Assembly (NCBI RefSeq): GCF_001590835.1
Contig: NZ_LTAQ01000067.1
Coordinates: 34,752-98,751 of the forward strand
Direction of reading: 5' to 3'
Source: Bacillus gaemokensis
Lineage (GTDB): Bacteria; Bacillota; Bacilli; Bacillales; Bacillaceae_G
Length of the DNA: 64,000 nucleotides
A model generated the notes under the pieces. The model did no database searches. It was given only the letters and a program-made list of their open reading frames with translations, and was not told the DNA's origin. Below are positions 1-27,090 of the stretch, in pieces; position 1 is the stretch's first letter, and each line of letters opens with the position of its first letter. A program made the translations under genes and the position numbers.

Positions 1-290
1 AGTATAGCAGAGACACAACGAATATTTTTAAGACGTATAAAACACGCTCTATCATAATACAAAAAGAATAGCATTTTCTGTGAATTATAAGTATAAATTT
101 ATCTTAGATTAATAGGAGGATGGTGAGACCTCAGTTGCACTTACATATAGGACAGTCTTATTTTTAGAGATTGGAAAAGAATTTTTGGATTTGTTGGGCT
201 GTTCTTTTGATTTAAAATGAGAAGTAATGTTCTGAAAAATATAAAGAGTATAGAGGTAAAAAAAATGAATGGTTTTAAAGATGGGAGATT

Positions 291-734
291 ATGATTATAA
301 GTGAAATATTTAAAATAAATATTTTTTGTAGTTCACCTATAAGTAAAATAAAGGTAAATAAAAAAGAAATAGATACTATGTTCCCAATTCAGATATTTGA
401 TCAGATAGTTAAAGAAGAGATTCAAGTTGATTTTGTAAACATATCTGTAGAGGAAGTCTTATTTTCTATAGAAAATGAAAAATTAGCCAAGGTAATTACA
501 ATTATCGAACAGTTAGACTATATTCCTGAAATCCATCCAGGGTGTATTAAGGTAACCATAGAAGGAGCAGCTGAATTTTTTTGGGTACCACCAGGAAACG
601 TAACACAAGTCATTTCTGCTTTATGGAAAAAAGGTGTGCAAATCTTACAAGCTACTGATAGTCATAAGACAATTTTTACACCTGGAGATGCCAATTTTCT
701 CTTTTTGGGGTATTTGCTGAATCTATACCAATAG
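291..734 (+). pseudogene. Aspartokinase C-terminal (ACT domain) remnant
   Basis: The 147-residue product resembles only the C-terminal regulatory part of a lysine- or diaminopimelate-sensitive aspartate kinase of the DapG type. Seen directly are a segment like 'VDFVNIS', a 'CIKVTIEGA' strand and the 'GVQILQATDSHKTI' stretch that matches the family's 'GVQILQSADSHTTI'. The kinase domain (about 250 residues) is absent, and the usual valine-rich end is replaced by an unrelated tail, suggesting a frameshift near base 680. The ribosome site (GGGAG, 4 bases before ATG) is badly spaced. Most likely a decaying fragment; a free-standing ACT ligand sensor is a less likely alternative. Confidence 0.6.
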
Positions 735-869
735 AAGGAGTTATTTCAGGTCCAATACATTTTGAAGGAGCTCGAATAAGTTAGAACTAATTATTCCTCT
801 AAACGTACAATTTTCTTTTTTGATATAGTTACTCACTATTTCCATAATTGTATCTTTTTTTAATTTCCT

Positions 870-2560
870 TGAAGACGAGCAGTTAGCTTTTGCTATCTGC
901 TCTTTTGTTTGCGTCGAATGGTCCAATATCTTCACCAATAGCACCTAAGTAATTCTTACGATCCATATCCCAACAACTGCGGCACATCTTTTTACTAGGA
1001 ACGAAATCTAATAAGTGTGGTCCTCGTAATTCCTTACTGATACCACCACACCAATCACATTCACTGCCATTTTCATACTCTGCCATAATTTTATTCACTT
1101 GATGTTCTGAAAGCTCTATACTTCCAATTGGCTCTGTACAAGCTAGCTCGCCAGTATCATATTTACTTGGCATACCGTCATACGCTAATGACTCCATGTA
1201 ATCATCTGTCATTTTGTTTAAATCGATAACCAATTTATGATCAATAATTTTAAGTTCATATTTTCCCATTTCCCTCTTCCTCCCTGAATAAAACTCAATA
1301 TTTCGTCAATACTGTAGATAGGCCAACCAGCCAAAACTCATTTGAATTTCTTTCTCCTTGTTCCCCCTTGGAGATGAGCGGTTAGCTTTTGCTAGCTGCT
1401 CTTTTTTGGTTACATTTACCACTAGTAACTATTACAGTTACACTTTATAATATAGAGGCTCGAATAAATCGAGCTGTTATACCCATTACCCTAGGAAACT
1501 AGGGTTTTGTTTTGTACAAAATGAAATTTTTGTTAACTAGCCTTCACTTCATGAATAATTCCCCAAATATTATCCATAATATAGATAAGCTGGTGAAACA
1601 GCTATACTACAATCCATAATGAATCTCTGATTTTCTTGAATTCTCCCTAAGACAAGGCAGTTAGCTTACGCTAACTGCTTTGTTGTATAAGTTTTCATCA
1701 CAAGTACATACTATTTACGGGATGCTTGATTGATTGTCATTTGAGATGTTATTTAACTTCGACGCTCCCGCTCCTTTGGAGAACAGCTTATACAACTGTT
1801 CTCCTGTTTTTTATTTAATTTTCACCTTTGAATAAAAAATAAATATACTATCATGAAGTTACCTATTAGGATACATCTTAACAAGAGCACTATTTGAAGG
1901 TGCTCTTTTTTCTTTATCAAATAAATACTTTGTCTTCCTTTACATATTTTTAGGAAAACTACACATACTAGCCATAAACCGTTTAAACTAGCGGTTTCAC
2001 TCTTCTTGTAATGAGAAGGCAATTTATCTAATTGACCAACTCGTTCAACCCACCGGCAGATAACTAAAAACGTTATCTGCCAAACCATTAACAATTTTTG
2101 TATACTAAGTATCAAACTTGTGCATACTTTTAAAGAGCTACATGTATTAATATTTATATTCTTTCTAACGGATTCCCCTCCGTTACATAAGATCCTAATT
2201 AGCAGATAACTAAAAAGTTGTCTGCTATTTTTTGTATAGCTATATTTTTTTTACACATACTATCTACGAGCCAGCTTACCAATATGAGTCATTTGGACAC
2301 TTGAGAGTCCTCCTAAATTATTTTACTTTTGATAGGGCAAGCAATTTCGCTTGTCCTATTCTCAATTAAATATTTATTTTTCCTCTTTCTCTACTTTCTA
2401 CTCAAATGAAGTTTTTATTAAGTTCCCTTTCATTCCGCATAATATTTCCAATCCCGTTTATACTATAGTTGTAACTGTCCGTTACAAATCATTGCTTGTA
2501 AGCGCGGGTTTCTTTTGTACAACGAGCAGTTAGCTAATTGAGCTAGCTGCTTTGTTGTGC
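870..2560 (+). repeat. Tandem array of diverged stem-loop units
   Basis: From 1270 to 2686 no convincing gene is seen. The interval, plus the end of the preceding gene, holds at least ten hairpins. T-rich tails follow many of them on the plus strand: 877-902, 1376-1401, 1489-1504, 1657-1678, 1778-1804, 1885-1905 and 2202-2229. Others are at 2055-2081, 2169-2186, 2332-2359 and 2526-2550. Several units carry a second, smaller hairpin upstream (for example GCTCGA/TCGAGC near 1458-1474, AGCTG/CAGCT near 1587-1602, TTGTAAC/GTTACAA near 2470). Unit starts recur as ACATACTATYTACG at 1706, 1963 (shorter) and 2257. The layout suggests diverged tandem copies of a small transcription unit or structured RNA; the function is unknown. 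Confidence 0.5.
883..1269 (-). CDS. Small hypothetical protein with two CxxC knuckles
   Basis: A 128-residue protein that I do not recognise. A strong ribosome site (GGGAGGAAGAGGG, read on the minus strand) lies just before ATG, so translation is credible. Two cysteine pairs, 'CDWC' near residue 72 and 'CRSC' near residue 98, suggest a zinc-binding fold, and the protein is acidic overall. The last codons overlap a stem-loop at 877-902. The surroundings (integrase, dUTPase and aspartokinase remnants) suggest accessory or phage-like DNA. No function is assigned. Confidence 0.6.
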   Translation of the reverse strand: MGKYELKIIDHKLVIDLNKMTDDYMESLAYDGMPSKYDTGELACTEPIGSIELSEHQVNKIMAEYENGSECDWCGGISKELRGPHLLDFVPSKKMCRSCWDMDRKNYLGAIGEDIGPFDANKRADSKS

Positions 2561-2686
2561 AAAATAGCGTTTTTGTTCAAAAACTTCACAAACTCATTTC
2601 TACTAATATGGTTTCAAATTTTTCTATTGACAGTTATAATACTTTTACACAATTGAAATTCTACAATCAATATCGGAGGCACTTTA

Positions 2687-3034
2687 ATGGTAAACACCCC
2701 TAAATTTTCATCACAACAATTGAATCCCAATACATATCAAAATAAGGGTAAGAATAAAAAACTCAGACGTCGTCTTTTATTAGCTTTAGCTTTTATGTTA
2801 CCTCTAATTTTTTCTACTCAATATTCCATTTATCAGCAACAAAAAATGATTAAAGAAAAACAAATCATACTTAATAAGGAAAAACAAAGATTATCTTCTT
2901 TAAAGAAAATTGGGCATGATCTTGAGTACGATATTAAAACTTTAACAGGAAGTGAAGAAGGTATTTTAAAATTCGCAAGGAAACTATATGGATTTTCTAA
3001 GCCAGATGAAACTATATTTCAAATAACTGAATAA
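2687..3034 (+). CDS. DivIC/FtsL-type septum formation initiator family protein
   Basis: A 115-residue bitopic membrane protein with the architecture of DivIC/FtsB: a basic N-terminal cytoplasmic segment (to about residue 28), one membrane helix (about 29-48), a Gln/Lys-rich coiled coil (about 50-85), and a C-terminal part containing 'EEGILKFARKLYGFSKPDETIF', which resembles the DivIC ending where a methionine or phenylalanine follows the coiled coil. The ribosome site TCGGAGG precedes ATG well. The chromosomal divIC normally sits elsewhere in a conserved locus, so this is probably a paralogue carried in accessory DNA. Whether it joins the divisome or acts as an interfering paralogue cannot be told from sequence. 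Confidence 0.65.
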   Translation: MVNTPKFSSQQLNPNTYQNKGKNKKLRRRLLLALAFMLPLIFSTQYSIYQQQKMIKEKQIILNKEKQRLSSLKKIGHDLEYDIKTLTGSEEGILKFARKLYGFSKPDETIFQITE

Positions 3035-3174
3035 ATTTTTATGATATATGAACGACCTTACGAAAATTACATATCCTACAAGTAAAATCAGCTTCAATCT
3101 AAAAGTGCTCGGCATTCCCCCAAAGGCGATATAATGATAATCGTCTTTTTATTTATCAGCAATCTATCAAATAA

Positions 3175-3354
3175 CTATTTTGTACTAATTGCATCCCAAT
3201 CAAATGTTTCTAATATATTTAACAATCGTTCCACTTTCGGTGGTCTCCAAGCCATCATAGCATAGGTGTGAGCTTTTGAAGTATAGTGATAATCATTTTC
3301 CTGTGTTAGCAATTCCTGCTGCAGTTCCTTTAAAAATTGAATGTGCTTGTTCAT
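3175..3354 (-). CDS. Small 59-residue hypothetical protein
   Basis: A short gene read on the minus strand, from ATG at 3354 to TAG at 3175. A good ribosome site (GGGGGAATGAG) sits just upstream. The product begins 'MNKHIQFLKELQQELLTQ' and ends 'IFETFDWDAISTK'-like, is rich in Leu/Gln and helical residues, and contains an aromatic 'YAMMAWRPPK' segment. The balanced amino-acid composition and ribosome site make it more believable than the 68-residue reading on the opposite strand. It is not recognised; small proteins of this kind are common in phage and ICE cargo. Confidence 0.5.
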   Translation of the reverse strand: MNKHIQFLKELQQELLTQENDYHYTSKAHTYAMMAWRPPKVERLLNILETFDWDAISTK

Positions 3355-3502
3355 TTCTCATTCCCCCAATTTGTATTAAAATAACGCTTTTGTTTAGTTT
3401 GCGTTTTATAGTCCTCTTCTTTCTTATCAACAAAAATTTGTTCATATTCCATTCATATTGTGCATTTAATAAGTACGATTAGAAATTTCTGGAGATGAAA
3501 AT

Positions 3503-4077
3503 ATGTCTGAAAAAGATGAATTGAATTCATCTGAAATTTTATATAGCGCTGCATTAAATCCAAGTTTAATCGGTCCCACATTACCATCTATTCCACCATT
3601 CGCTTTTCCATCAGGGTCAACTGGACCGACTGGACCAACTGGGTCAACTGGTTCTCAGGGAATAGTTAATGTTTTTTTGCCAGTGAAAGGAACTCCCTAA
3701 GTCCCATCCCAGCCACCACAACTTTAGTACTGCCTCCAATAACTGTAGCATCAGGGCAAGTCGTAAAATTAGAAGCATTTGCTTTTGGTCTTTCCCTCCA
3801 AGCAGATCTAGATGTCACCTATACAGCTCGTTTTCGTCTAAGAATATTTAGGGACATAGTTACTATTGTAGATATAGAACAAGGGGTTAATTCTCAAACT
3901 TCTGATGGTGAAGCGGGAGTTTTATCTCTAAATCCATCTTTGTTTTGGTTAGATTCCCCATTACCAGGCACATACACTTATTCTCTACGAATTGATCTTG
4001 TAGGGCCTCCTTTTAACCTACTAGATTTTAGCTCACTAAGAGATCGAGCAATAATTGCAACACTAATTAATACGTAA
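3503..4077 (+). pseudogene. Exosporium leader / collagen-like spore surface protein, frameshifted
   Basis: The first 65 codons encode the BclA-family exosporium targeting leader ('LIGPTLPSIPPFAFPSG') followed by a short collagen-like stretch of GST/GPT triplets and 'GSQGIVNVFLPVKGTP', then TAA at 3698-3700. Reading continues in the next frame from about 3700 to TAA at 4075 with a plausible beta-rich C-terminal domain ('TTTLVLPPITVASGQVVKLEAF' and onward), so one indel near 3690-3700 splits the gene. The ribosome site TGGAGA precedes the ATG. An intact form would be attached to the exosporium basal layer via the leader. Here only the leader/collagen part would be made, unless the indel is a sequencing error. 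Confidence 0.75.
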
Positions 4078-4111
4078 AAAAATTTTGTTAATAAAGATTC
4101 TATTAATGTAA

Positions 4112-4145
4112 AGTCTCTCTAAATCTTTTAGAGGGATTTTTTTAT
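4112..4145 (+). terminator. Intrinsic terminator of the exosporium gene
   Basis: A stem of about nine pairs (TCTCTCTAA with TTTAGAGGGA) is followed by seven T residues. It lies about 35 bases after the second-frame stop of the exosporium gene, which supports the idea that the split gene was once one transcription unit. Confidence 0.8.
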
Positions 4146-4191
4146 TTCTAGATACACATTTAATATTTCTTAACAAAATTCAAATTTGATC

Positions 4192-4602
4192 TTAATATCC
4201 GTTATCCTGACGTTGGTGATTTACTTCATTCTTTTTGATATACGCTTGTTCGATTTCATCAAATGTAAATCCTAATTTCTTACCTAAACCTAGGAAAGAA
4301 TATAGTAATTCTTTATAGCACTCTATATCTTTTGGATTTGCACGAAATTCCGAAACCATTTCATATACATTATTAAACTGACTAACTAACGTACTTGATG
4401 TAAAAACATCCGCATTATGATTTAGTAATTTTAAGTTATACTCATTAGGATTAAATTGAATTCCATTTCCTAATGATGCTATAAAATGCAATCCGTCAAC
4501 ATATTCCATTAAAATGACCTCTTTTTCACTAGGTCCTTTATTGCTCCAATTTTTGAAACATCTTGTTTCATTTGCAAGTTCTCCATTTACTGTTTTTAAC
4601 AA
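4192..4602 (-). pseudogene. Dimeric dUTPase, N-terminally truncated
   Basis: The product matches the C-terminal two thirds of the all-alpha dimeric dUTPase/MazG-like family: 'GELANETRCFKNWSNKGPSEKEVILMEYVDGLHFIASLG' carries the metal-binding ELANE and E..D helix residues, and it ends with the family's 'YIKKNEVNHQRQDNGY'. A functional enzyme needs an upstream helix of roughly 35 residues, which is missing. The frame opens with TTG and a stop lies five codons earlier. There is no good ribosome site. Such dUTPases are typical of Bacillus phages and also have host copies. Together with the adjacent broken integrase this points to prophage or ICE debris. Confidence 0.7.
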
Positions 4603-4752
4603 GGAATGACAAACTTATCCTATAACCTATGCTGTTTATATATAGTAAAATAAATCCATCGCTGATATGTCCCAAAATGTAATTTTCATAACAGCAAAAT
4701 TACAACTAGACTTACACAACATGATTCAAAATGAGATGAAGGAGTGTTTAAA

Positions 4753-5833
4753 GTGAAAGGGCATATTCGAAAAAGAGGAACAAAGTGGTGTATTATCATC
4801 GACATCGGTGCTGATTCAGAGACAGGAAAAAGAAGACAAAAAAAGAAGCGCAAGCGGATGTTGCGAAAAAGATTACTGAGTTGAATGAGGGTACTTTTGT
4901 TGAACCATCAAAAATCACAGTTAAATCCTTTTTAAACGAATGGGTTGAAACAAAAAAATAAATGTTAAAAGTAGCACTTATAAAGGCTATCACTCTGTAA
5001 TAACCAAGCATTTAACACCTAACTTGGGTGAAATTAAACTCGTAAAGTTAAATGCATTGCAAATTCAACATTTCTATAAAAAGATTAGTGAAACTACTCA
5101 CCCTAATATGGCGCATTATATACACAGAATTTTGACCATATCATTAAATCAAGCTGTAAAATTGAAATTGATTAACATTAATCCGACTACATTGGTTGAA
5201 ATACCTAAAAAAGAAAAAACCTCATTCCAAGTGTGCGATGAGGATGACATAAAACATTTCTTGAATATAACTCAAAAATCACGATATCATATCGCGTATA
5301 TATTAGCAATCACTACTGGAATGAGATTAGGAGAAATATTAGGATTAAGATGGCAAGATGTTGACTTGAAAAGCAAAACAATATCCATTAATCAAACTTT
5401 AAGTCCCGATAACCAATTGGTGTTAGATACAAAAACTTCAAGTTCTAGACGTTTGATATCAATAGATGAAAGAACTATAGAAGCATTACAAAAACACAAA
5501 TCAAAAATTAATATCGAAAAGATAAGGCTTGGTCCATCGTATATAGACCATAATTTAATTGTTTGTACAAAGATAGGAAATATAATTTGTCGTGGTGGCT
5601 TTCATGATACTTTTAAAACTTATATAAAGAAGTCTGGGATCAAAGACATTCGATTTCATGATCTACGCCATACTCATGCAATTCTACTCTTAAAACAAGG
5701 AGTACATCCAAAAGTGGTAAGTGAGCGGCTAGGACACAAAGATATATACATTACTTTAAATCGCTATTCGCATGTATTGCCTGGTATGCAGGAAGCAGCA
5801 ATAAAAATGTTCTCTGAAAATCTGTTTGGATAA
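4753..5833 (+). pseudogene. Tyrosine recombinase (phage/ICE integrase), multiply frameshifted
   Basis: A GTG start at 4753 with an AAGGAG site begins an AP2-like arm-binding domain ('GHIRKRGTKW'). A frame change near 4840 leads into 'EAQADVAKKITELNEGTFVEPSKI', then a second near 4955-4962 leads into the SAM-like core-binding domain. The rest, from about 5024, is intact: 'LAITTGMRLGEILGLRWQDV' (catalytic Arg), 'HDLRHTHAILLLKQGV' (His/Arg box), 'LGHKDIYITLNRYSHV' (His and Tyr nucleophile). Family members run about 370-390 residues. The full-length enzyme cannot be made, but the catalytic domain alone (269 codons) remains open. It marks an old integration event. Confidence 0.85.
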
Positions 5834-5914: not shown

Positions 5915-7711
5915 TTAAATCTTAAACTGACTTGTATACAATCCATGATAGAATCCTTGATTCTCCATAAGAGATTCATGGTTCCCTCTCTCAATAATCT
6001 CTCCATCTTCAATAACAAGAATTTGGTCTGCTTTTTCAATTGTCTTTAATCGATGGGCAATTACAAAACTTGTGCGTCCTTTCATCAAGTTGTTTAATCC
6101 TGCTTGGATTTGTAATTCTGTTCTTGTATCAATATTAGATGTCGCTTCATCAAGAATTAAAATATCTGCATCTGCTAAAATTGCTCTTGCAATTGCAAGT
6201 AATTGCTTTTGCCCCTGACTCAAATTCGATCCTTCCGAAGCAATCTCGGTTTCATATCGATTTGGTAAATGCTTAATAAAAGAATGTGCAGATGCCGCTT
6301 TCGCTGCCGCAATAACTTCATCATCACTTGCATCTAGTCGTCCATAACGGATATTATCCATAATCGTCCCGGCAAAAAGATATGTATCTTGTAAGACGAC
6401 GCCTATTTTACTTCGCAAAGAGCTAATATCGTAATCTTTTATATCTCTACCATCAATTTGAATTTGTCCCTTTTGAATATCATAAAAACGTGTTAATAAA
6501 TTAATGATTGTTGTTTTTCCTGAACCAGTTGGTCCAACAAGTGCGATCGTTTCTCCTGGATTGGCATGCAAGCTTACATCTTTTAAAATTTCTTTTTCTT
6601 TCTCATATCCAAATGATACATGCTCAAAAGCAACATTGCCTTTTAGGTTCTTAACAACGATGGCATCTTTTTTATTTTGAATTTCTGGTACTTCGTCCAT
6701 AATTTCAAAGACTCGCTCTCCTCCAGCAACTGCAGCTTGAATTGTATTCATAAGCGTTGCAAACTGACTTAGCGGTCTTGAAAATTGGCGAGAATAGTTA
6801 ATAAATGCTGCGATGACACCAACTGTTGTCATACCGTTTAAAACCATAATTGCTCCTGCTCCGATAACAAGTCCCATTCCTAAGTTATTAATAAAGTTCA
6901 TGCTCGGGAAGATAAATGCTGAAAAAGTGTCAGCTTTTGTAGCAGAAGATCTAAGCTGTTCATTAATTACATGAAACTTATTGACAGTTTCTTTTTCTTT
7001 TCCATATAACGTAATAACATCTGATCCTGTAATGGCTTCTTCAATAAAACCATTCAATTCACCTAAATCCTTTTGACGTTTTGCAAAGTTTTTACCACTA
7101 TAGGCAACCAATTTTTTTGTAACGAAAAACATAATTGGGACTGTAATTAATGTCACGATTGCTAAAATCCAATCTAGTGAAAACATCGCAATTGTTACGC
7201 CTACAAATGTTAAAGCAGACGAAATAATTTGGACAACACTTTGTGTTAGCGCTTGGTTTAAGCTATCGATATCATTTGTAACACGACTCATTAAGTCCCC
7301 TTGTGAACGTACATCAAAAAAACGAAGAGAAAGTGTTTGGATCTTCTCGAAAATATCTTGTCGTATTTTTTGTATCGTTTTCAGTGCAACGTTTATCATT
7401 ACGAATGTTTGTAGCCATGTTAATAATACAGTCACACCATAAATTCCAATGAGTAGCATACACATTCGCGCTGTACCATTTAAATCTCTTGGTACGATAT
7501 ATTCATCGATAATAACTCCCATATAATATGGACCTAGTAAACCAAGTAATGTCGTAACAAATACGAGAACAATAACGAAGATAAGGGCTGCTTTTTGATA
7601 TCCCATATAGTTCCATACCCGCATTACTGTTCCTTTTGTATTTTTGGGTTTGCCTGACTTTGGATTGTTACGTCCGTTTTTATTTCCGAATTGCCCTTGG
7701 AAATTACGCAT
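5915..7711 (-). CDS. ABC exporter half-transporter, canonical ATP site (YfiC-like)
   Basis: A 598-residue membrane-spanning/ATPase fusion (type IV ABC exporter). The true start is ATG at 7711 with a GGAGGGG site; the frame can be extended upstream but only into the previous gene. Six membrane helices fill roughly residues 50-330. The nucleotide-binding domain has Walker A 'GPTGSGKTT', signature 'LSQGQ', Walker B 'ILILDEATS' with the catalytic Glu, and H-loop 'IAHRL'. It overlaps the preceding half-transporter by 8 bases, so the two are translationally coupled. By analogy with YfiB/YfiC and BmrC/BmrD of B. subtilis it forms a heterodimer for drug or lipid-like substrate export. Confidence 0.9.
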   Translation of the reverse strand: MRNFQGQFGNKNGRNNPKSGKPKNTKGTVMRVWNYMGYQKAALIFVIVLVFVTTLLGLLGPYYMGVIIDEYIVPRDLNGTARMCMLLIGIYGVTVLLTWLQTFVMINVALKTIQKIRQDIFEKIQTLSLRFFDVRSQGDLMSRVTNDIDSLNQALTQSVVQIISSALTFVGVTIAMFSLDWILAIVTLITVPIMFFVTKKLVAYSGKNFAKRQKDLGELNGFIEEAITGSDVITLYGKEKETVNKFHVINEQLRSSATKADTFSAFIFPSMNFINNLGMGLVIGAGAIMVLNGMTTVGVIAAFINYSRQFSRPLSQFATLMNTIQAAVAGGERVFEIMDEVPEIQNKKDAIVVKNLKGNVAFEHVSFGYEKEKEILKDVSLHANPGETIALVGPTGSGKTTIINLLTRFYDIQKGQIQIDGRDIKDYDISSLRSKIGVVLQDTYLFAGTIMDNIRYGRLDASDDEVIAAAKAASAHSFIKHLPNRYETEIASEGSNLSQGQKQLLAIARAILADADILILDEATSNIDTRTELQIQAGLNNLMKGRTSFVIAHRLKTIEKADQILVIEDGEIIERGNHESLMENQGFYHGLYTSQFKI

Positions 7712-9458
7712 GCTCTTCCCCTCCTTCTTGATGCAAATTGCCACCTTGGGAAAGATAAATTTCCTGATATACTTCACATTTTTGTAACAGATTTTCGTGC
7801 GTATCATTTCCAACTAACTCACCATTATCTAAAACGAGGATCTGATCAGCATCGATGATAGATGATATTTTTGATGCAATTAAAAATGTCGTTGTTCCTG
7901 CATACTCATCGCTCAACGCTTCTTGTATAATTGCTTCTGATTTCGCATCAACTGCTGATGTAGAATCGTCTAACACAAGAATAGAAGGTTTTCGTACAAG
8001 TGCTCTTGCGATTGAAAGGCGCTGTTTTTGACCGCCAGAAAGATTCGTTGCACCTTGCGTTAAATTGTGCTGATATGCATCTTCAAGCTTATTAATAAAT
8101 TCTGTTGCACAAGCAGCTGCAGAAGCCGTTTCTAATTCACTATATGTAGCTTCTTCTTTTCCATATCGCACATTTTCTTCAATACTTCCTGAGAATAACA
8201 ATGCCTTTTGTGACACAAAACCGATTGAAGAACGCAGCATTTGTAAATCATATGCTTTGACATTGACGCCATCAATAAAAACTTCACCTTTATCCACATC
8301 ATACAGACGTGGAAGTAGTTTAACCAATGTAGACTTACCACTTCCTGTGGATCCAATAATCCCTATTTTTTCACCTTTACGTACGGTAAATGAAATATCT
8401 TTCAAGACATATTCATCATTTTTGCTATAACTGTAGCTGACATGTTTAAACTCAACATTGCCGTTTACTTTTTCCGGTTCATACATATCCTCTTCATTTG
8501 TAATATCGACTTTCGTCTCTAACACTTGTTGTACACGATCAGCGGACGGAAAAGCACGAGCGATTTGAATAAATACCATACTGATAGACATGAGTGACAT
8601 TAAAATAATATTTAAGTAGTTAATAAATGCTAAAATCGCCCCTACTTGTAGTGTACCGTTAAAGACTTTCACACCACCAATCCATAATGTAGCTACAATA
8701 CCGCCATTTACAACGAGCATAATAATGGGCATCATTAATGAAATGATCTGCACTGCACGAATATTAATCCCTGTTAAATTCTTATTTACCTTCTCAAACT
8801 GTGAGATTTCATGATTTTGTCTTACATATGCTTTTACAACACGAACACCAGATAAATTTTCTTGTAGCTTTGTATTTACTTTATCCAGTGCTTCTTGCAC
8901 CTTTTTAAATGACCCACTTGCTTGACCTGCAATTAAAACAATCGCAACTAATAAAATAGGTACAACTACAAGTAATATAGGAAATAAATCTCTCGCCGTT
9001 ACAAAGACAATAATAATACTCCCTATAAATAATAAAGGCCCTCGAACAAGAACACGTAATGTCATCGTCATAGCTGCCTGAATGGATGTAATATCATTTG
9101 TTACGATTGTCAACAATTTTCCTGTTCCAAATGAATCACGATTTTTACTAGAAAACGTCTCGATTTTCGTAAAAACCTCTTTTCTTATATCCGTGGCAAA
9201 ATTAACCGCAGCTTTCGTAGAATACATCATACATCCAAGACCACCAACTAATCCAAGCGCTGCCGCTCCTATCATGAGAAGTCCCATTTTGATGACATAA
9301 TTAAAATCTTGGTTTGCAATGCCAACATCAATAATATGTTGCATAATAGTTGGTTGAATTAAGTCCATCGCAACCTCAAGTACCATAAACAGTGGTCCAA
9401 TAACAGCGAAGAACGTGTATGGTTTTAAATGCTGTAACAATTTGCGAAATGATTTCAT
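7704..9458 (-). CDS. ABC exporter half-transporter, degenerate ATP site (YfiB-like)
   Basis: A 584-residue half-transporter, first gene of the two-gene exporter operon (ribosome site AAGGAGA). Membrane domain about residues 15-310, ATPase domain about 340-575. Walker A 'GSTGSGKST' and signature 'LSGGQ' are intact, but the Walker B is 'ILVLDDSTS' with Asp in place of the catalytic Glu, and the H-loop reads 'IASKI' without the His. This is the standard asymmetry of heterodimeric exporters: this partner supplies the degenerate site's catalytic residues, the other the consensus ones. Substrate unknown; multidrug export is an inference from the family. Confidence 0.9.
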   Translation of the reverse strand: MKSFRKLLQHLKPYTFFAVIGPLFMVLEVAMDLIQPTIMQHIIDVGIANQDFNYVIKMGLLMIGAAALGLVGGLGCMMYSTKAAVNFATDIRKEVFTKIETFSSKNRDSFGTGKLLTIVTNDITSIQAAMTMTLRVLVRGPLLFIGSIIIVFVTARDLFPILLVVVPILLVAIVLIAGQASGSFKKVQEALDKVNTKLQENLSGVRVVKAYVRQNHEISQFEKVNKNLTGINIRAVQIISLMMPIIMLVVNGGIVATLWIGGVKVFNGTLQVGAILAFINYLNIILMSLMSISMVFIQIARAFPSADRVQQVLETKVDITNEEDMYEPEKVNGNVEFKHVSYSYSKNDEYVLKDISFTVRKGEKIGIIGSTGSGKSTLVKLLPRLYDVDKGEVFIDGVNVKAYDLQMLRSSIGFVSQKALLFSGSIEENVRYGKEEATYSELETASAAACATEFINKLEDAYQHNLTQGATNLSGGQKQRLSIARALVRKPSILVLDDSTSAVDAKSEAIIQEALSDEYAGTTTFLIASKISSIIDADQILVLDNGELVGNDTHENLLQKCEVYQEIYLSQGGNLHQEGGEEHA

Positions 9459-9710
9459 ACATAGTCTCCTTTTCTTATGAAATTGTCATTTTATAATTCA
9501 AATACTCACTCCTTTTTATTCATCTATAAGTACATTTTCATCACTATTACTATTATATTCTATAGATTAATATTTAACATGATTAAATGATAAATATTAA
9601 TTTTGTATTCGTCAATCAATGTGCCCTACTTTTATGTAAGAGGAATCTGCTATCATTAGGATTTATATATTACTTAACTCTACACCTTTACCTTTCCAGC
9701 CATAAATAAA

Positions 9711-9738
9711 ACCGCATTCTTTTATACTAGAATGCGGT
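9711..9738. terminator. Terminator after the DUF1349 gene
   Basis: A ten-pair stem ACCGCATTCT/AGAATGCGGT lies immediately downstream of the minus-strand gene ending at 9748. AT-rich sequence flanks it on the exporter side, where 9459-9700 otherwise shows only presumed promoter DNA. Confidence 0.75.
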
Positions 9739-9747
9739 CTACTTCAA

Positions 9748-10350
9748 TTATATATATTGAATCGTAAAATTTAAAAATTCTGTTTCAAAACCACCATTTT
9801 TTGATGGACTACAAGTATAGAATCCTACCCTTATAGGATTATTCCCCTGATCTTCCATAAGATGAGCGATGCGAATCTGTTCCCACTCCTGATTTTGTTG
9901 TTCCGTCTTCACATAGATTGAATAATCTCCGTTCTTTCGAATGATGCGAAATGAAAGATTTTGATTCACCAATTCATTTTGAAAATCTTGCGTCGACCAA
10001 TCAGAGTATCCACTATTCGTCACAACAGCCCCTAAATGTGAGGGCCCCTCAGGAATATATTCAAGTGATGTTTTCAACCAGCACTCCTTAGATATCATTA
10101 CAAAAAGTCCCGCTTGATCGTATGTTGCTTTCGGGTTCATACGTAATGAAACTTCAGCTTGAAAGTCTGCAGAAACCTCTTCATAAAACACATGACCATT
10201 CATCACTTCAAATCCGTAATGTGTTTTTAACCAAAAATCTGTTTCTTCTTTTGAATGAACAATAAGTGAATCATCTTTTCTCTCATGATATTTTGGTTCA
10301 TTCATTATTGTAAGTTGTTCTATATGAGTTGGTACGTAAGATGTTTTCAT
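9748..10350 (-). CDS. DUF1349 domain protein (concanavalin A-like fold)
   Basis: A 200-residue cytosolic protein without signal peptide. The pattern 'FWLKTHYGF...GHVFYEEVSADFQAEVSLRMNPKATYDQAGLFVMISKECWLKTSLEYIPEGPSHLGAVVTN' (described by its parts) is the DUF1349 family's jelly-roll core, including the 'DQAGL' turn and the 'W.K' strand. The ribosome site GGAGGAG fits ATG at 10350. Family members are small lectin/glucanase-like proteins of unknown activity in Firmicutes and fungi. It lies 34 bases after a GNAT gene on the same strand and may be co-transcribed with it. Confidence 0.8.
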   Translation of the reverse strand: MKTSYVPTHIEQLTIMNEPKYHERKDDSLIVHSKEETDFWLKTHYGFEVMNGHVFYEEVSADFQAEVSLRMNPKATYDQAGLFVMISKECWLKTSLEYIPEGPSHLGAVVTNSGYSDWSTQDFQNELVNQNLSFRIIRKNGDYSIYVKTEQQNQEWEQIRIAHLMEDQGNNPIRVGFYTCSPSKNGGFETEFLNFTIQYI

Positions 10351-10383
10351 AGCTCCTCCATAAAAATCTTTTTACATTACACA

Positions 10384-11268
10384 TTAAAATTCAGTCAAAA
10401 TCGGAAATTTATACCCATTGAAATGAATCTTATTACTGCTCCGAACCATTAAATACTTATCAGACTGAAATTCTTTGTATGCTAACTTTTCAATTCCTAA
10501 CTCATCAGGATAAAAATAAAACTCAATCTCTGTAAATACTTCAGGGATTTCAGCACATATTTCATCTAAAATTGGAAAAACAGATGCAAACACACCAAAT
10601 AACTTTAGTGTTTGATCTTTTACTTCATATACAAAAAGTGCGTCCAATTTCTTTGAATAGTATAGTTTTTCATTCCACTTCGTATCATACATATTAAAAT
10701 AAAAAGAAGATTGGTAGTTTAATGTCGAAAACATATTGGAAAGCGGTTGACTATTTTCCAGTTTCTCCTTTATTAATTGTAAATCCTCTTCATCAGAAAA
10801 ATTTAATTTTTGAAGTGATAAAGTTTTATGTTTCGTTTTATCATACGATAATGTCATCAGATGTTCTTTTACAACTTGAAATCCAAACGCCTCATATAAT
10901 TCTGGTTTTTCTGTGAATAACATAGCACATTCATAATGTTCATCTATTTTTTGTAACATCTCACAAAAAAGTTGTTTCATCAATCCTTTTCCACGATAAT
11001 CAGGATGTGTCATTACAGATTGGATACCTGCCGCATTTACAAATTCTCCATTTACAAAGAGTGGAAGTGAAAAACTAGATACATTCGCAATTACCTGTTC
11101 TCCTTGCATATATGCCACAGGTTTATATGTTTGATCCCAAAATCCCCTCGCATCAAAATTTTGCATTGTTTGCACAGAAATATCAAACACTTCTTCAAAC
11201 AATTGAAATAACTGCTCCTTTTTTGGTTCTTGCACAAACAAATTTTCAGAAATAGTAACATTCTCCAT
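10384..11268 (-). CDS. GNAT-family N-acetyltransferase (Eis/YkwB-like, two-domain)
   Basis: A 294-residue protein starting at ATG 11268, chosen because GGAGGGG lies eight bases upstream. The N-terminal GNAT domain contains the acetyl-CoA pyrophosphate loop 'HPDYRGKGLMKQL' (about residues 90-102) and 'LFTEKPELYEAFGFQ' helix-strand. The C-terminal half (about 150-294) looks like the second, non-catalytic domain of Eis-type acetyltransferases. The acceptor substrate is unknown. It precedes the DUF1349 gene in the same direction. Confidence 0.8.
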   Translation of the reverse strand: MENVTISENLFVQEPKKEQLFQLFEEVFDISVQTMQNFDARGFWDQTYKPVAYMQGEQVIANVSSFSLPLFVNGEFVNAAGIQSVMTHPDYRGKGLMKQLFCEMLQKIDEHYECAMLFTEKPELYEAFGFQVVKEHLMTLSYDKTKHKTLSLQKLNFSDEEDLQLIKEKLENSQPLSNMFSTLNYQSSFYFNMYDTKWNEKLYYSKKLDALFVYEVKDQTLKLFGVFASVFPILDEICAEIPEVFTEIEFYFYPDELGIEKLAYKEFQSDKYLMVRSSNKIHFNGYKFPILTEF

Positions 11269-11289
11269 GTTGCCCCTCCATAAATTCAT

Positions 11290-11651
11290 TCCATTAGTTT
11301 AATTGTATTGTATTTTATTGTATATATATGTAATAATAATCCTTTCAAATCAATATAGTATCACATAATTTACCAAAAGAGTTTAATTTATTTTATGTTT
11401 CGATTGCTCCATGAAAATCAGAATAAAAGAATGTTACGATTTCAATACTTTCAGTTTTTTAGTTGATTCCTCCATAATCAATATCTATACTGTCATCTTC
11501 ATCATGAGCTACACTAAGAAAAATAATTATAAAAAATGTGTCCCTCTGTCAGCTGTTCAGCCATTTTAAGGACACATTTTCTCCCATAATTATTCTATTA
11601 AGACCTAAAAAAGATTCTTCATCAAAGCTTTAAGAATCAAATATCCCTCCA
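11290..11651. other. Intergenic region with one strong hairpin
   Basis: These 362 bases contain the presumed promoter of the GNAT gene and a hairpin (11533-11581) pairing AAAATGTGTCC with GGACACATTTT, which is the likely terminator of the gabT-MOSC operon. Nothing else is seen. Confidence 0.6.
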
Positions 11652-12341
11652 TTACTCACTAATTCCTTCTAATCGCTCCTTCGTACTTACTTCTTCTCCT
11701 TTCAAACGTTTTTCAAATGTTTTTCTCCAACTTGCTGAAAGAGCCTCTACTTCTAAAATTCTTCGTACTCCCTCAAAATTACGTTTTTCTTTATGCATCA
11801 TGTGGTTTGCAAAAGCGATTGAGATACCTTTACAATCAGGCTCAAGCTGTATAAGAGCATCTGTTGGTGATACCCACCCCTCTTTTAGGACGCGAAAATA
11901 AAATCCCGTATAACCTGTATTTTGGAAGTACAGTGGTAATTGCGGTATATCATACTTTTTGGCTAATTTAAAACAAGGTTGTCTTGGTTGGCTTACTTGT
12001 ACCATCGCTTCGCCAATTTGAAATATATCCCCTATACAAACATCCTCTTCAAGCATGTCTTGTACGGTCATATTTTCGCCAAAAGCACCATATAGAAGTT
12101 TTCGATTTAATTCCTTTTCCCAATATGGATAATGGTTATAGGAATAAACACAAACAGCTTTATCTATTCCGCCATGATGAACTAAATCAGCTTGCCCATC
12201 TCCATTAAATTTTAATGATGATAAAAAGACAGGCTCACTTACCCGTGATTTATTCATACCGGTTTGTATTATTTTCCCTCCATATGACACTTCTTTTGGC
12301 ATGCCTAAATTAAGAGACATCAATTTATATAATTTTGACAT
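11652..12341 (-). CDS. MOSC domain protein, YiiM/YflK family
   Basis: A 229-residue protein with the MOSC sulfur-carrier fold: 'FNGDGQADLVHHGGIDKAV' and 'YGAFGENMTVQDMLEEDVCIGDIFQIG' are the family's core, 'VSQPRQPCFKL' holds the conserved Cys (about residue 125), and a C-terminal 3-alpha extension follows. YiiM-type proteins reduce N-hydroxylated bases or participate in molybdenum-cofactor linked detoxification. The ATG at 12341 overlaps the TGA of gabT (TGATG), so it is coupled to gabT; a GTG one codon earlier is the alternative start. Why it is paired with an aminotransferase is unclear. Confidence 0.85.
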   Translation of the reverse strand: MSKLYKLMSLNLGMPKEVSYGGKIIQTGMNKSRVSEPVFLSSLKFNGDGQADLVHHGGIDKAVCVYSYNHYPYWEKELNRKLLYGAFGENMTVQDMLEEDVCIGDIFQIGEAMVQVSQPRQPCFKLAKKYDIPQLPLYFQNTGYTGFYFRVLKEGWVSPTDALIQLEPDCKGISIAFANHMMHKEKRNFEGVRRILEVEALSASWRKTFEKRLKGEEVSTKERLEGISE

Positions 12342-13693
12342 CACTCACCACTCCTTTCACTATTTTGACAAAGTACTTCAAAAGCTTGATTTATTATCTC
12401 AAATCCCTTATCAATTTCCTCATTCGAAATTACAAGTGGTGGTAAGAATCGAAGAACATTATCATATATGCCTGCCCCAATACTTATAAGTCCATTCTTC
12501 CAAAACTCCTCAATTAACTGCGTTGTTAATTCTTTTGCTGGTTCTTTCGTTACACGATTTGTCACTAGCTCCATCGCCACCATTGCACCAATTCCACGAA
12601 CATCACCAATCACTTCATATTTCAGCTGCATTTGAAGCAGGTGCTCCTTCACCCTCTCCCCAATTTGCTGTGCTCGTTCAATTAAACTCTCTTCTTCCAT
12701 TATTTCAAATACAGCAAGTCCTGCTACACATGACAGTGGACTTCCTGCAAAAGTACCTCCAATTTGTCCTTTTCCAGGCGAATCCATCAGTTCCGCCCGT
12801 CCGACAATAGCACTTAATGGAAGACCTGCTGCAATAGATTTTGATAGTGTCATAATGTCAGGTTCAATTTGAAAATGCTCTGTTGCAAACCACTTTCCAG
12901 TTCGCCCAAATCCGGTTTGCACTTCATCCATTATCATTAAAATGCCATATCGATCACAAATTTTCCGAAGACGTTTCACAAATGTAACTGACGGAGTAAT
13001 AAATCCACCTTCACCTTGTACTGGTTCCATCACAATTGCCGCCACTTTCTCAGGTGATACTTGTTCTAAAAAATTTTCGAATTGACTAATAACTTGATAA
13101 TCGACTTCGTCAGGAGACATTCCTTCTTCAGCTCGATAATAATACGGGTAAGGTAATATATACATATCTGAAACAAAAGGACCAAATCCTGCTTTATATG
13201 GATTTTCCTTTGTTGATAAAGACATTGTCATTAGCGTTCTTCCATGAAAACCACGTTCAAAAGATACAACCTTACTTCGCCCTGTTACTTTACGTGCTAT
13301 TTTCACAGCATTTTCAATTGCCTCTGCACCACTATTAGCAAACATCGTTTTCTTTTTGCTTGTTCCAGGAGCTTTTTCATTTATTTTCTCTGCTAAAGCA
13401 AGATAACTTTCATATGGCGTTACATGGAAACATGGATGAATAAACAATTCCACTTGTTCTTGTATAGCTTTTACAACTTTCGGATGACAATGTCCAACAT
13501 TTTGCATACCAATTCCACCCGCAAAATCAATAAAATCATTTCCATCTACATCTGTAATAATGGATCCTTTTGCCGCTTGTACGTACAAAGGAGTTAAATT
13601 GTATACCCCTGTTGGCACAGCTTGTTGATATCGTTTATAAAGTTCTTGAGAATAATTACCTGGTAATGCGCTAGATTTTAATCCTTGTATCAT
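12341..13693 (-). CDS. gabT: 4-aminobutyrate aminotransferase
   Basis: A 450-residue class III PLP aminotransferase, normal length for GabT. Visible landmarks are 'FANSGAEAIENAVKIAR' (phosphate-binding), 'FHGRT', 'EPVQGEGGF', 'DEVQTGFGRTG' (PLP ring Asp) and the Schiff-base Lys in 'TLSKSIAAGLP' (about residue 287), plus 'GGTFAGSPLSC'. It transfers the amino group of GABA to 2-oxoglutarate, giving succinic semialdehyde. It is divergent from a LysR regulator at 13831, which is a likely regulator. No gabD lies nearby. Other omega-amino acids could be the real substrate. Confidence 0.88.
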   Translation of the reverse strand: MIQGLKSSALPGNYSQELYKRYQQAVPTGVYNLTPLYVQAAKGSIITDVDGNDFIDFAGGIGMQNVGHCHPKVVKAIQEQVELFIHPCFHVTPYESYLALAEKINEKAPGTSKKKTMFANSGAEAIENAVKIARKVTGRSKVVSFERGFHGRTLMTMSLSTKENPYKAGFGPFVSDMYILPYPYYYRAEEGMSPDEVDYQVISQFENFLEQVSPEKVAAIVMEPVQGEGGFITPSVTFVKRLRKICDRYGILMIMDEVQTGFGRTGKWFATEHFQIEPDIMTLSKSIAAGLPLSAIVGRAELMDSPGKGQIGGTFAGSPLSCVAGLAVFEIMEEESLIERAQQIGERVKEHLLQMQLKYEVIGDVRGIGAMVAMELVTNRVTKEPAKELTTQLIEEFWKNGLISIGAGIYDNVLRFLPPLVISNEEIDKGFEIINQAFEVLCQNSERSGE

Positions 13694-13795
13694 TTCATCA
13701 CCTCGTCTATTTTTTTACAATGATTACATTACTTTTCTACTAATGTGAGTATAATTTCAAGATAATCATTGTTCAATTCAATTATTTATATGATA

Positions 13796-13816
13796 ATGAT
13801 AGGTAAAACCTATCAT
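13796..13816. promoter_or_regulatory. Palindromic operator upstream of lysR
   Basis: ATGATAGG and CCTATCAT are perfect inverted arms separated by five bases (TAAAA). The site lies 14 bases before the LysR start codon in the divergent gabT-lysR promoter region, where LysR proteins usually bind for autoregulation. Which protein binds is inferred from position only. Confidence 0.5.
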
Positions 13817-13830
13817 TAGAGGTGATTTTG

Positions 13831-14727
13831 ATGGAATTAAGACAATTAGAATATTTTTTAGCTGTTTCGAAAGAACTGCATTTTACAAAAGCAGCCGAAA
13901 AATTAAATATTTCACAGCCTTCACTTAGTCAACAAATTCGTGCGCTTGAGCATGAATTTGGCATGCCTCTTTTTGATCGAATTGGCAAAAAAATCTCTTT
14001 AACAGAGGCAGGGAGAATTTTGTTTTCACACAGTAAAAAAGTCTTTCACGAAATAGAACAAGCGCGTACTGCAATTCAAGAGTTAAACGGACTACAGCAA
14101 GGAAATTTAACCGTTGGTGCTTTATTGACGGTCATAAACTACTTATTACCACCAGCCATTTTGAATTTTAATGCGTTATATCCCAATATTGAACTTTCTG
14201 TGTTAGGTCTTCGTACGGGAGAAATCCGTGAAAAATTATTACAAAACGAACTAGATATTGGCATTACGTTTCTTCCTGTTCAAGATAAAGAAATCATATC
14301 TATTCCACTTTATCAAAGTGAACTTACTTTAGTAGTACCAACTGGTCACGAATTAACACAACACACTACTGTGACGATGGAAGTATTACAAAAATATCCT
14401 GTCATCCTCCTACCGAAAAATTTCTTTTTAACACAGCTTATTACTTTACATTGCCAGAACTTTAACTTTACACCGAAACCAATTTTAGAAATAAGTACAA
14501 TGGAATCATTAATTCATATGGTATCAAAAGGCATGGGAATTACAGTTTTACCTAAACCATATATAGACTTTCTACAGAGTAACTCTATTCAAGCTATTAA
14601 AATCAAAAATCCTACTCCCACGATAGAAATTGGAATTATTTATAGAAAAGATAAATATATGTGTGCTGCTACACGTGAGTTTATTGAGCAATTAAAAAGC
14701 ATTGTAGGTTCTTTTTTAAAAATATAA
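13831..14727 (+). CDS. LysR-family transcriptional regulator
   Basis: A 298-residue regulator; ATG 13831 is preferred (AGAGGTG upstream) over GTG three codons earlier. The N-terminal winged helix is classic: 'MELRQLEYFLAVSKELHFTKAAEKLNISQPSLSQQIRALE' (in parts), with the recognition helix 'SQPSLSQQI'. Residues from about 90 form the two-lobed effector domain ('GNLTVGALLTVINYLLPPAI'). Divergent from gabT-MOSC, which it probably controls. It resembles the CynR/YwfK branch, but the effector is unknown. Confidence 0.88.
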   Translation: MELRQLEYFLAVSKELHFTKAAEKLNISQPSLSQQIRALEHEFGMPLFDRIGKKISLTEAGRILFSHSKKVFHEIEQARTAIQELNGLQQGNLTVGALLTVINYLLPPAILNFNALYPNIELSVLGLRTGEIREKLLQNELDIGITFLPVQDKEIISIPLYQSELTLVVPTGHELTQHTTVTMEVLQKYPVILLPKNFFLTQLITLHCQNFNFTPKPILEISTMESLIHMVSKGMGITVLPKPYIDFLQSNSIQAIKIKNPTPTIEIGIIYRKDKYMCAATREFIEQLKSIVGSFLKI

Positions 14728-14733
14728 AAATAA

Positions 14734-14758
14734 AGAGAGTATGTTTACCACACTCTCT
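14734..14758 (+). terminator. Terminator after lysR
   Basis: AGAGAGT pairs with ACTCTCT and is followed by GTTTTTA, directly after the LysR stop. A second, longer hairpin at 14828-14876 (AGGC..TCTAAAAAAT with ATTTTTTAGA..GCCTTTTT) separates it from the converging small membrane-protein gene. Confidence 0.75.
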
Positions 14759-14897
14759 GTTTTTATATTTTCTATTATTCACTTTTGTTATGAATGAAAC
14801 TTACAAAAACATCACTTAAATAGAAGAAGGCCGCTCTAAAAAATCGTTGAATGACAATTTTTTAGAACAGCCTTTTTATGAAAAATTTTCTCTACTA

Positions 14898-15164
14898 TTA
14901 ATGAACTTTCTTAGATATTGGAATATACTTTGTACAATACGCACCCACTAACAATAAAATCATTGACGTTAGCCAAGTGACTATCCCTACAAAGTTAAGC
15001 CAATATGCAAGTAAGTTTAAAATTGCAATAAGAAAGCAACAAATAGAAGTTAATGCACTTTTTACTCCTGTTAGTCCTGCATTTTTTCTTTTTTTATAAA
15101 CCAAATACATTGAAACCAAAAGAGAAATAATAAGAACAATTGATAATATGAAAGGTAACAACAA
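14898..15164 (-). CDS. Small membrane protein, three helices
   Basis: An 88-residue hydrophobic protein starting with TTG behind GGAGGGAG. Three membrane helices can be seen at about residues 2-21, 35-54 and 58-76, with a Lys/Arg-rich loop 'YKKRKNAGLTG' after the first. It lies 50 bases downstream of a lipase-like gene on the same strand and may share its message. No family is recognised. Confidence 0.6.
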   Translation of the reverse strand: MLLPFILSIVLIISLLVSMYLVYKKRKNAGLTGVKSALTSICCFLIAILNLLAYWLNFVGIVTWLTSMILLLVGAYCTKYIPISKKVH

Positions 15165-15213
15165 ATCTCCCTCCTATACAATTCCATTCACGTATACATT
15201 TTATATTACCACC

Positions 15214-16728
15214 TTATTCCTTTTTTAGAGTGACTTTTTCATTATTCAAGAACTTAACCTCAGGAAAATTTGCATTCGGTCCCGAGATCAGTTGTCCTTC
15301 TGTTCCTTTTAAATGTTTATTAAAGAAGTCTAGTACATATTGATTTACAATATACATACCTCTTTGGCCATCTATTTCTCCAGTCATCTTTGTTAGTTTA
15401 ATAAGATCAGAAAACAATTGTAAGTCAGTGAAATTATAATGCGCCGTTCCTTTTATAGAAATCATGATCCCCCCATCAGCAAGAACCTGATCTATTCGTT
15501 GATACTCCTTTTCTTTTTGCTGTCTTATCATATTGAACTTATCTTCTGATAATTGCTTTGGTTTTATTTCACCATCAGAATGAATCTTACCTTCGATCTT
15601 CTCCCGGTTTAACATAAAATCTTCAGTTTCCATAAGCATAAAGGGCTTTTTTAAACTTTGCTTCAGTTCTAACTCATAAAGTGACCCATCCATATTTATC
15701 CCTGCCTTTACTTTCTCATTTACATACATAGCATTTAGTGCGGTTGCCCCACCAAACGAATGACCCATTACTCCAATATTATTCATATCTATATTCCCTT
15801 TAAACTTACTTTGAATGATTCCTGAATTCATCTTTTCTAATTGATTTATAACGAATCCAATATCTTCTGTCCATATCTTCCCAAGTTTACTACCATCCTC
15901 ATAGAAGTTATCCAAATTAAGTGCTGTCCTAAAACCAGTCACCTTACCGTCTGGAAATGCTGTTGCAGCTGTACTATAGGTATGATCTATAGCTACAACG
16001 ACAAAACCATGACTTGCAAGATTTTCAGCTTGAGCGTAGTGTAACCTGTTACTTGTACCAAGACCGTGACTAATTAATACTACGGGATAAGGATTTCTGA
16101 CAGACAAACTCTCTGTTTCTTCATAAGAATTACTTTTTATATACTTCCAGTAATCTAATGTAAACTTAGGAACACTTAATTTTCCAGAAAATGATTGCAT
16201 GTACTTGTTAAATATCCCTTTATCTTCTGGAAAAAGTAATTTACGTTTTTTATCTTTCATGTTTTGTGCAGGATACCAAACTTGCATCATTAACTCTCTT
16301 TTATCCTGTATATTTTCTGTCAAAACTTCATCTCTAGCATTATCTACTAAATGAAATGTTTGTGTCCCTACCGGATATAAGCCATCAGGTTTTGGTAATG
16401 TGAAAACTGGAAGGTATATTGCAGCGCAAACAGAGAAGAGAATGAAAACAAAAGCGATACAATACAAAATATAAATGAACTGTTTCCATATTTTTATTCC
16501 AAGAAATCTTTTGGATTTACAAAACATAATAAGAAGAATCAATACAATTGAAATCATATAAACAAAAAACAACTGCCATCGATATCCTTCATATAACAAT
16601 TGCAAAATTAATATAAGGCTACTAATCACACACAAAAAAATTCTATTTTTTTGTGTTACTCTTTTCGAAAAAGAAATATATAACAAAAGAATCGAACATA
16701 TAATCAATAATGCTTCAAGTAATCTCAT
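15214..16728 (-). CDS. Membrane-anchored alpha/beta hydrolase, PAF-acetylhydrolase-like
   Basis: A 504-residue protein with four hydrophobic N-terminal helices (to about residue 118) followed by a catalytic domain like plasma platelet-activating-factor acetylhydrolase. Evidence: 'PVVLISHGLG' (oxyanion strand), 'LASHGFVVVAIDHTYSTAA', and the nucleophile elbow 'GHSFGGATAL' (Ser near residue 322), then 'NMDGSLY' and a late His in 'GTAHYNFTDL'. This fold hydrolyses short-chain esters; in bacteria the substrate is usually unknown. The catalytic domain is probably outside the membrane. The ribosome site AAGGGGGA precedes ATG. Confidence 0.82.
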   Translation of the reverse strand: MRLLEALLIICSILLLYISFSKRVTQKNRIFLCVISSLILILQLLYEGYRWQLFFVYMISIVLILLIMFCKSKRFLGIKIWKQFIYILYCIAFVFILFSVCAAIYLPVFTLPKPDGLYPVGTQTFHLVDNARDEVLTENIQDKRELMMQVWYPAQNMKDKKRKLLFPEDKGIFNKYMQSFSGKLSVPKFTLDYWKYIKSNSYEETESLSVRNPYPVVLISHGLGTSNRLHYAQAENLASHGFVVVAIDHTYSTAATAFPDGKVTGFRTALNLDNFYEDGSKLGKIWTEDIGFVINQLEKMNSGIIQSKFKGNIDMNNIGVMGHSFGGATALNAMYVNEKVKAGINMDGSLYELELKQSLKKPFMLMETEDFMLNREKIEGKIHSDGEIKPKQLSEDKFNMIRQQKEKEYQRIDQVLADGGIMISIKGTAHYNFTDLQLFSDLIKLTKMTGEIDGQRGMYIVNQYVLDFFNKHLKGTEGQLISGPNANFPEVKFLNNEKVTLKKE

Positions 16729-16917: not shown

Positions 16918-16923
16918 ATTACT

Positions 16924-27080: not shown

Positions 27081-27090
27081 TTTAAACAAT

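Follow-up and report, generated by a model that had tools for sequence, protein, structure and literature searches.

Several described systems resemble parts of the locus reported here. Related short sRNAs that exist in multiple copies and carry C/U-rich unpaired parts are known as LhrC in Listeria and as csRNAs in streptococci, and sspC of the SP-beta prophage is a prophage-borne SASP gene under sigma-G. To our knowledge, forespore sRNAs have been described singly, and phages act on sporulation mainly through proteins and excision. The Bacillus cereus repeats bcr1-bcr18 reportedly go back to a 2011 paper by Kristoffersen. Published reports describe bcr repeats as structured intergenic elements of 100-400 bp in the B. 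cereus group, mostly chromosomal and partly transcribed (PMC6542083, PMC8725734, PMC3446304). Other reports present CsfG and Bvs196 as Bacillus forespore sRNAs that have their own transcription under sigma-F/sigma-G and an intrinsic terminator (PMC9147052, PMC12456014), Bvs196 being forespore-specific, dependent mainly on sigma-G, and reported to bind the sspN-tlp and spo0A mRNAs (PMC9147052).

Here we describe a hairpin-rich array in the window, i.e., the whole stretch of 64,000 nucleotides of Bacillus gaemokensis DNA that was analyzed. The units of this array, their conserved place and strand, an excess of promoter motifs, and the covariation of stems are direct observations. We interpret the array, with moderate confidence, as a modular and prophage-borne bank of small RNA genes, most of which would be read by sigma-G in the forespore.

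Anatomy of the array

An initial sequence-only reading had placed a tandem array of diverged stem-loop units without protein genes at 870-2560. The hairpins are real and in excess, with 10 terminator-like hairpins in positions 1-4500 against 1.6 ± 1.2 in 50 shuffles, 8 of which fall in 1376-2227 (5 on the plus strand and 3 on the minus strand), but the array proper spans only about 1286-2561. The part before it does hold a protein gene, namely a prophage-type, minus-strand ORF of 128 aa that adjoins the array (883-1269; ORF call and DNA matches). The first hairpin (about 875-902, plus strand), a terminator-type hairpin of the GAGCAGATAGC/GCTATCTGCTC-like kind and a copy of the shared terminator discussed below (repeat family D1), overlaps the 3' end of this ORF, and DNA similar to the hairpin region at about 875-900 is present in 56-64 loci.

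Strict tandem repetition is ruled out, as Tandem Repeats Finder returned 0 rows for the array and head-to-tail copies of one unit were not found there. The repeated words noted in the initial reading are present, with ACATACTATYTACG at 1706 and ACATACTA near 1963, although the second copy of ACATACTATYTACG lies at 2255 and not at 2257. The idea of diverged small transcription units held up: the array comprises about nine plus-strand units, each with a promoter-like element, a C/U-rich head, and a terminator hairpin, and several with a small 5' hairpin. Compared with dinucleotide shuffles, the predicted transcripts of all nine have more stable folds (z -2.7 to -7.9).

Each of the nine units has relatives in other prophage contigs (244 loci), and the alignment of units across genomes expected by the initial reading was thus obtained. 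The counts given here are loci among the 244 that match at least 80% of a unit; these loci were fetched partly via U1 and U8, and several share one contig, so that locus counts are not independent. U1 (1286-1406; 161/244 loci) combines GAATA-N17-AATACTG with a head and the shared terminator at 1376-1401, and U8 (2437-2561; 101/244) has GCATA-N17-TATACTA, a 5' hairpin TTGTAAC/GTTACAA, and a long terminator hairpin. GAATA-N17-CATAATA precedes a 5' hairpin and a terminator at about 1652-1683 in U3 (1553-1690; 23/244), while GTATA-N17-CATACTA is found in both U4 (1685-1816; 10/244; terminator stem AGGAGAACAG/CTGTTCTCCT) and U7 (2234-2364; 9/244; terminator stem AGGGCAAGC/GCTTGTCCT). U6 (1942-2086; 15/244) carries ACATA-N17-CATACTA, a covarying 5' hairpin, and a hairpin GGCAGATAAC/GTTATCTGCC, and is followed by U6b (2100-2234; 3/244), with GTATA-N18-CATACTT and a terminator at 2200-2227. 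The two remaining units lack a GHATA -35, namely U2 (1446-1516; 11/244), with TATAATATAG, a 5' hairpin, and a terminator at 1488-1505, and U5 (1844-1914; 8/244), with TATACTATCATG, a terminator at 1883-1907, and the weakest fold of the nine (z -2.7).

Promoter elements

Sigma-G is the late forespore factor, with a consensus of GHATR at -35, a spacer of N16/18, and CATNHTA at -10. In the window units, the words TAATATAGAT, TATACTATAG, and CATACTA are located 17 or 18 bases after RHATA, and seven of the nine units match one of two related sigma-G-like patterns, with three matching the sigma-G consensus itself. Neither pattern fits U2 or U5, which have no clear sigma-G -35. One of the two patterns has 6 sites in 1270-2690, whereas its density elsewhere in the window predicts 0.02 and 500 shuffles gave 0.04 ± 0.21. 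The three TATAAT-like words of the initial reading are present as well, but sites detected by a simple sigma-70 scan are no more frequent than expected (19 sites vs 20.7 ± 4.9). We suggest that these promoter elements are better read as sigma-G (forespore) than as TATAAT-type, and one table in a published report gives sigma-G for all the B. cereus-group genomes that it covers (PMC3171730).

The sigma-G-like pattern was first spotted by eye, and was then subjected to three tests that do not presuppose it. In a promoter-blind test, sites were defined by shared terminators in 80 loci picked only by the presence of a phage integrase, which yielded 87 distinct cases. A relaxed sigma-G motif, derived like the terminator pattern from these data, lies ahead of the shared terminator in 47 of the 87 cases, compared to 0/87 for reversed sequence and 1.5% of 3000 random positions, and is missing upstream of the other 40. 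The stricter sigma-G consensus was found in 14/87 cases (0 reversed, 0.8% at random). In the same upstream regions, the sigma-K motif stayed at background, with 2/87 (2 reversed, 3.8% at random), and counts were 1/87 for sigma-F and 0 for both sigma-E and sigma-H. In the first locus set, a terminator occurs within 170 nt after 250 of 603 promoter-like sites, while reversed sequence yields 15 of 402.

U8 copies fetched with a pattern that excludes the -35 show the ATA of this element at 2.0 bits, with the 17 spacer columns ranging from 0.1 to 2.0 bits (58 of 71 distinct U8 segments, i.e., with duplicates merged and leaving out L005, L065, and units with short flanks). In 140 N17 units, which were selected by a related pattern, the last -10 position is A at a frequency of 0.77 and G at 0.20. 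The commonest promoters, those of U1 (AATACTG) and U8 (TATACTA), deviate from the sigma-G consensus in the outer positions of the -10. SASP genes of spores are classic sigma-G targets, and the same patterns were detected within the upstream 120 bp of 7 out of 10 such genes, including GCATAATATCTTTATTATTCGACATACTA upstream of a Rossellomorea SASP gene; the ten genes (L086-L095) were chosen from 79 plasmid records and include two near-copy pairs and one gene without an annotated start (L095).

Alternatively, the units might encode sRNAs of growing or lysogenic cells that are made from sigma-A or phage-regulated promoters and act, for example, in superinfection immunity. Prophage sRNAs of this type are known in other phages, the two units without a sigma-G -35 would fit such an origin, and the TATACT of U8 resembles a sigma-A -10. 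However, the sigma-A motif lies ahead of only 2 of the 87 terminators (5 in reversed sequence, 4.6% at random), which speaks against a vegetative TATAAT-type promoter as proposed in the initial reading. In the 80 integrase loci, furthermore, the strict promoter was found 72 times on the strand opposite to the integrase and lytic genes and 0 times on the other, and this absence from the lytic-gene strand argues against a promoter under general phage regulation. Overall, we consider a sigma-A or phage-regulated origin unlikely and retain sigma-G as the predicted factor for most units.

Place, strand, and neighbors in prophages

We read positions 870-5833 of the window as the remnant of a prophage in what appears, judging by an exosporium leader peptide and by the relatives of the array, to be a B. 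cereus-group chromosome. Beyond the 128-aa ORF, this region includes a gene for a DivIC-like protein of phage family phrog_18733 (2687-3034, plus strand; profile matches), a short plus-strand ORF that encodes an exosporium leader peptide (TIGR03720; 3503-3700; profile match) and is probably what remains of a longer gene for an exosporium protein, a phage-type dUTPase (4192-4602, minus strand), and a tyrosine integrase (5024-5833, plus strand; profile match). Pfam and PHROG searches at E 0.1 gave no match for the 128-aa ORF; its DNA matches an annotated hypothetical gene of the Lysinibacillus plasmid pFN9C (71.9%, over 923-1233) and a stretch of another prophage locus (L047; 81%). Ten ORFs scanned in 5915-20341 are host-like (ABC transporters, LysR regulators, an aminotransferase, and others).

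The array in the window could represent debris of a decaying prophage, with functional units perhaps restricted to intact relatives. Signs of decay include the dUTPase, which covers profile positions 41-162 of 162 and misses the profile start, the exosporium-leader ORF of only 65 aa, and host-like genes that start as early as 5915. Yet seven of the nine units retain promoter elements and terminators, along with compensatory differences from their relatives, and we find decay a highly improbable account of the array.

Across prophages, the array keeps to one place and one strand. In the integrase loci, 69 of the 72 strict promoters sit no more than 5 kb upstream of the integrase; the reversed control gave 11. 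Promoter-plus-terminator units number 126 in these loci and 20 in reversed sequence; 117 of the 126 are on the opposite strand, and 82 of these 117 lie 1-3 kb upstream of the integrase. When at least 5 kb of upstream sequence was available, at least one unit was found within 6 kb in 42 of 66 integrase loci and none in the other 24, and single prophage loci contain up to 8 units.

In two loci, the array is bordered on the lytic strand by genes for a phage transcriptional activator (phrog_248) and an integrase (phrog_216) at one end, and by genes for dUTPase and DnaC/DnaD-like helicase loaders at the other. The array strand itself carries cargo genes, among them those for exosporium-leader and collagen-like proteins, a GNAT acetyltransferase, and an Mrr-type nuclease. 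Exosporium-leader genes were detected in 10 of 49 unit-bearing contigs, a frequency that refers to unit-bearing contigs only. A TerL_ATPase match was obtained for 26 of these 49 contigs, and at least these 26 are thus phage-like.

This regularity bears on the possibility that mobile or interspersed repeats, perhaps corresponding to some of bcr4-bcr18, make up the array and spread as DNA. The units do recombine (see below), and bcr repeats are described as structured and group-specific elements of 100-400 bp with about half of the copies transcribed (PMC6542083, PMC8725734, PMC3446304). Against this stand the constant position and orientation of the units within prophages and their conserved order of promoter, head, and terminator; moreover, bcr groups B and C are described as averaging about two copies per strain, as opposed to up to 8 units in a single prophage locus. 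Spread as DNA repeats seems to us very unlikely.

Structure and coding potential of the predicted RNAs

The first two pattern scans recovered 354 units (277 distinct), of which 321 do not overlap any ORF of at least 80 aa; all unit scans omit L003, L005, and L065, and from the 354-unit scan onward also the ten SASP loci. Grouping of the RNA heads gave 36 families with one filter and 30 with another, and most families have one terminator type in common. This shared terminator accounts for much of the conservation (repeats D1, D2, and D4).

Covariation, which the initial reading had named as a check, was detected in the stems of two families. For the U8 terminator, both sides have changed in 21 cells vs 5.3 ± 1.8 in shuffles, based on a reference set of 42 out of 44 sequences (one was too short and one had an internal duplication). 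The 5' helix of U8, nearly invariant and partly fixed by the search pattern, displays no covariation. Within the U6 family, compensatory changes affect both the 5' and the 3' hairpins (10 cells vs 2.6 ± 1.6), while the number of pair types in this alignment is not above shuffles (9 vs 9.3). A 5' hairpin is not a general property of the heads, being found in 7 of 30 families vs 3.2 ± 1.5.

Representatives of the 30 head families are G-poor (14% G). Runs of 8 pyrimidines occur in 17 of the 30 (10.1 ± 2.1 expected), and anti-Shine-Dalgarno words show a modest excess (12 of 30 vs 7.0 ± 2.0), with no enrichment of TCCC and CTCCT at the head-family level. An uncontrolled search for 12-base complements of the heads in phage DNA yielded no clear target, and its matches were mostly of low complexity or in conserved genes.

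Small peptide genes were considered and rejected, since an ORF of at least 8 codons preceded by a Shine-Dalgarno sequence is present in just 5 of 217 distinct RNAs; a closed ATG ORF of at least 12 codons is present in 26 of the 217. Membership in a known Rfam family was likewise rejected, with 0 matches at gathering scores in the array and six array loci. An E-value Rfam search of 800-2720 gave 12 weak matches to unrelated families, all below gathering scores.

Could the hairpins simply stop transcription between facing modules, the promoters being incidental and the short RNAs idle? Such a terminator island would fit the concentration of conservation in the shared terminator, as well as the location of units between oppositely oriented modules, the nearest genes of at least 80 aa being in opposite orientation in 400 cases and parallel in 208. 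It has no need, however, for conserved promoters at a fixed spacing ahead of the terminators, nor for 30 recurrent and conserved head families, and we regard it as an unlikely explanation. At the level of sequence, the units have the features of sRNA genes, i.e., their own predicted promoter, an intrinsic terminator, an apparent lack of coding capacity, and, in the U6 and U8 families, a conserved structure with compensatory changes, which lends support to the sRNA bank suggested in the initial reading.

Elsewhere in the window, two tandem T-box leaders (52840-53343, minus strand) lie ahead of a 652-aa ORF (50870-52828), and a further T-box is located at 29494-29710 (minus strand). A glycine riboswitch aptamer (56668-56787, plus strand) is found just ahead of a 488-aa ORF at 56794, and a cspA thermoregulator match (26798-27131, plus strand) scores 79.3 against a gathering threshold of 78 bits in what is a Bacillus-like genome. 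A tRNA search of the whole window returned none.

Relatives and modular exchange

Searching IMG/VR viral contigs with a U8 pattern that consists of just the -10 and the 5' hairpin gave 80 matching stretches, with two or three matches in many contigs and at least one (L065) that looks like chance, and a 34-base pattern for the U1 promoter matched 95 stretches. The units are rare among named records, where U8 was found in 0 of 50,697 phages and 1 of 72,556 plasmids (pNY3A), and U1 in phage SpaA1 and plasmids pN24509_1 and pNY3A. In a collection of genome contigs, which seemingly lacks B. cereus-group genomes, the U8 pattern gave one match to an archaeal MAG that we take as chance.

Two of these records have features of their own. 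Phage SpaA1, which is filed as a Staphylococcus phage, carries a U1-type unit (L002, 3017-3133) between P52 and P51 and on the opposite strand. Plasmid pNY3A, filed under Klebsiella grimontii (CP079755.1), contains Bacillus-like DNA with a gene-poor hairpin array (L001, about 4300-5710), a U8 unit, and a SASP gene (L086), which may reflect a mixed assembly or an incorrect assignment of the record.

The window shares colinear array blocks with other prophages, with identities of 62-80%. In L047, the block of the 883-1269 ORF instead flanks the opposite side of the array. In another locus (L041, 1060-1222), a U6 head leads straight into a terminator of the U7 type, as though by recombination between two units.

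A candidate bank of forespore RNAs

Under our favored interpretation, each unit would be a separate gene of roughly 60-115 transcribed nt, made up of a promoter, a C/U-rich head, in some families with a small hairpin that closes the 5' end, and an intrinsic terminator. RNA polymerase with sigma-G would read most units, so that the RNAs would appear in the forespore of a sporulating lysogen, and neither in growing cells nor in the lytic cycle. There, or in the germinating spore, the unpaired C/U-rich heads would probably pair with purine-rich stretches of mRNAs, e.g., ribosome-binding sites. The units would be gained, lost, and recombined as modules, beside sporulation-related cargo such as exosporium-leader proteins. 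Transcription, the use of sigma-G, mRNA pairing, and a benefit to the lysogen or the prophage are the steps that we infer.

More tentatively, temperate phages of the B. cereus group might keep an exchangeable bank of forespore RNAs as a cell-type-specific form of lysogenic conversion, possibly programming the spore through short RNAs that are swapped between phages. If so, these RNAs would affect spore resistance, dormancy, germination, or the prophage's own fate in the spore. This would represent a novel route by which phages influence dormant hosts, provide dozens of candidate sporulation regulators, and account for long intergenic stretches in many prophages. While forespore sRNAs are already known, a prophage-borne bank of many families would be new, and no description of such prophage forespore sRNA arrays was found in the titles and abstract openings of open-access PMC literature.

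Comparison with known systems

Compared by description, the array shares with bcr1-bcr18 its structured and intergenic nature and its bacterial group, and differs in a prophage-specific place and strand and in a promoter-terminator layout. LhrC and the csRNAs are alike in forming sets of related short sRNAs whose unpaired parts are C/U-rich, the comparison by sequence being the Rfam scans above; unlike the array units, they are host genes under other regulators and form few families. As for sspC of SP-beta, it is likewise a prophage gene with a sigma-G-type promoter, and the sspC loci L088 and L089 both have GTATA-N17-CATAATA, but sspC codes for a protein, whereas the array units appear to be non-coding. 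CsfG and Bvs196 match the proposed units as independent forespore sRNA genes with an intrinsic terminator. However, CsfG and Bvs196 are single, conserved, and host-borne (Bvs196 with 294 nt), whereas the array units are many, short, diverse, and prophage-borne.
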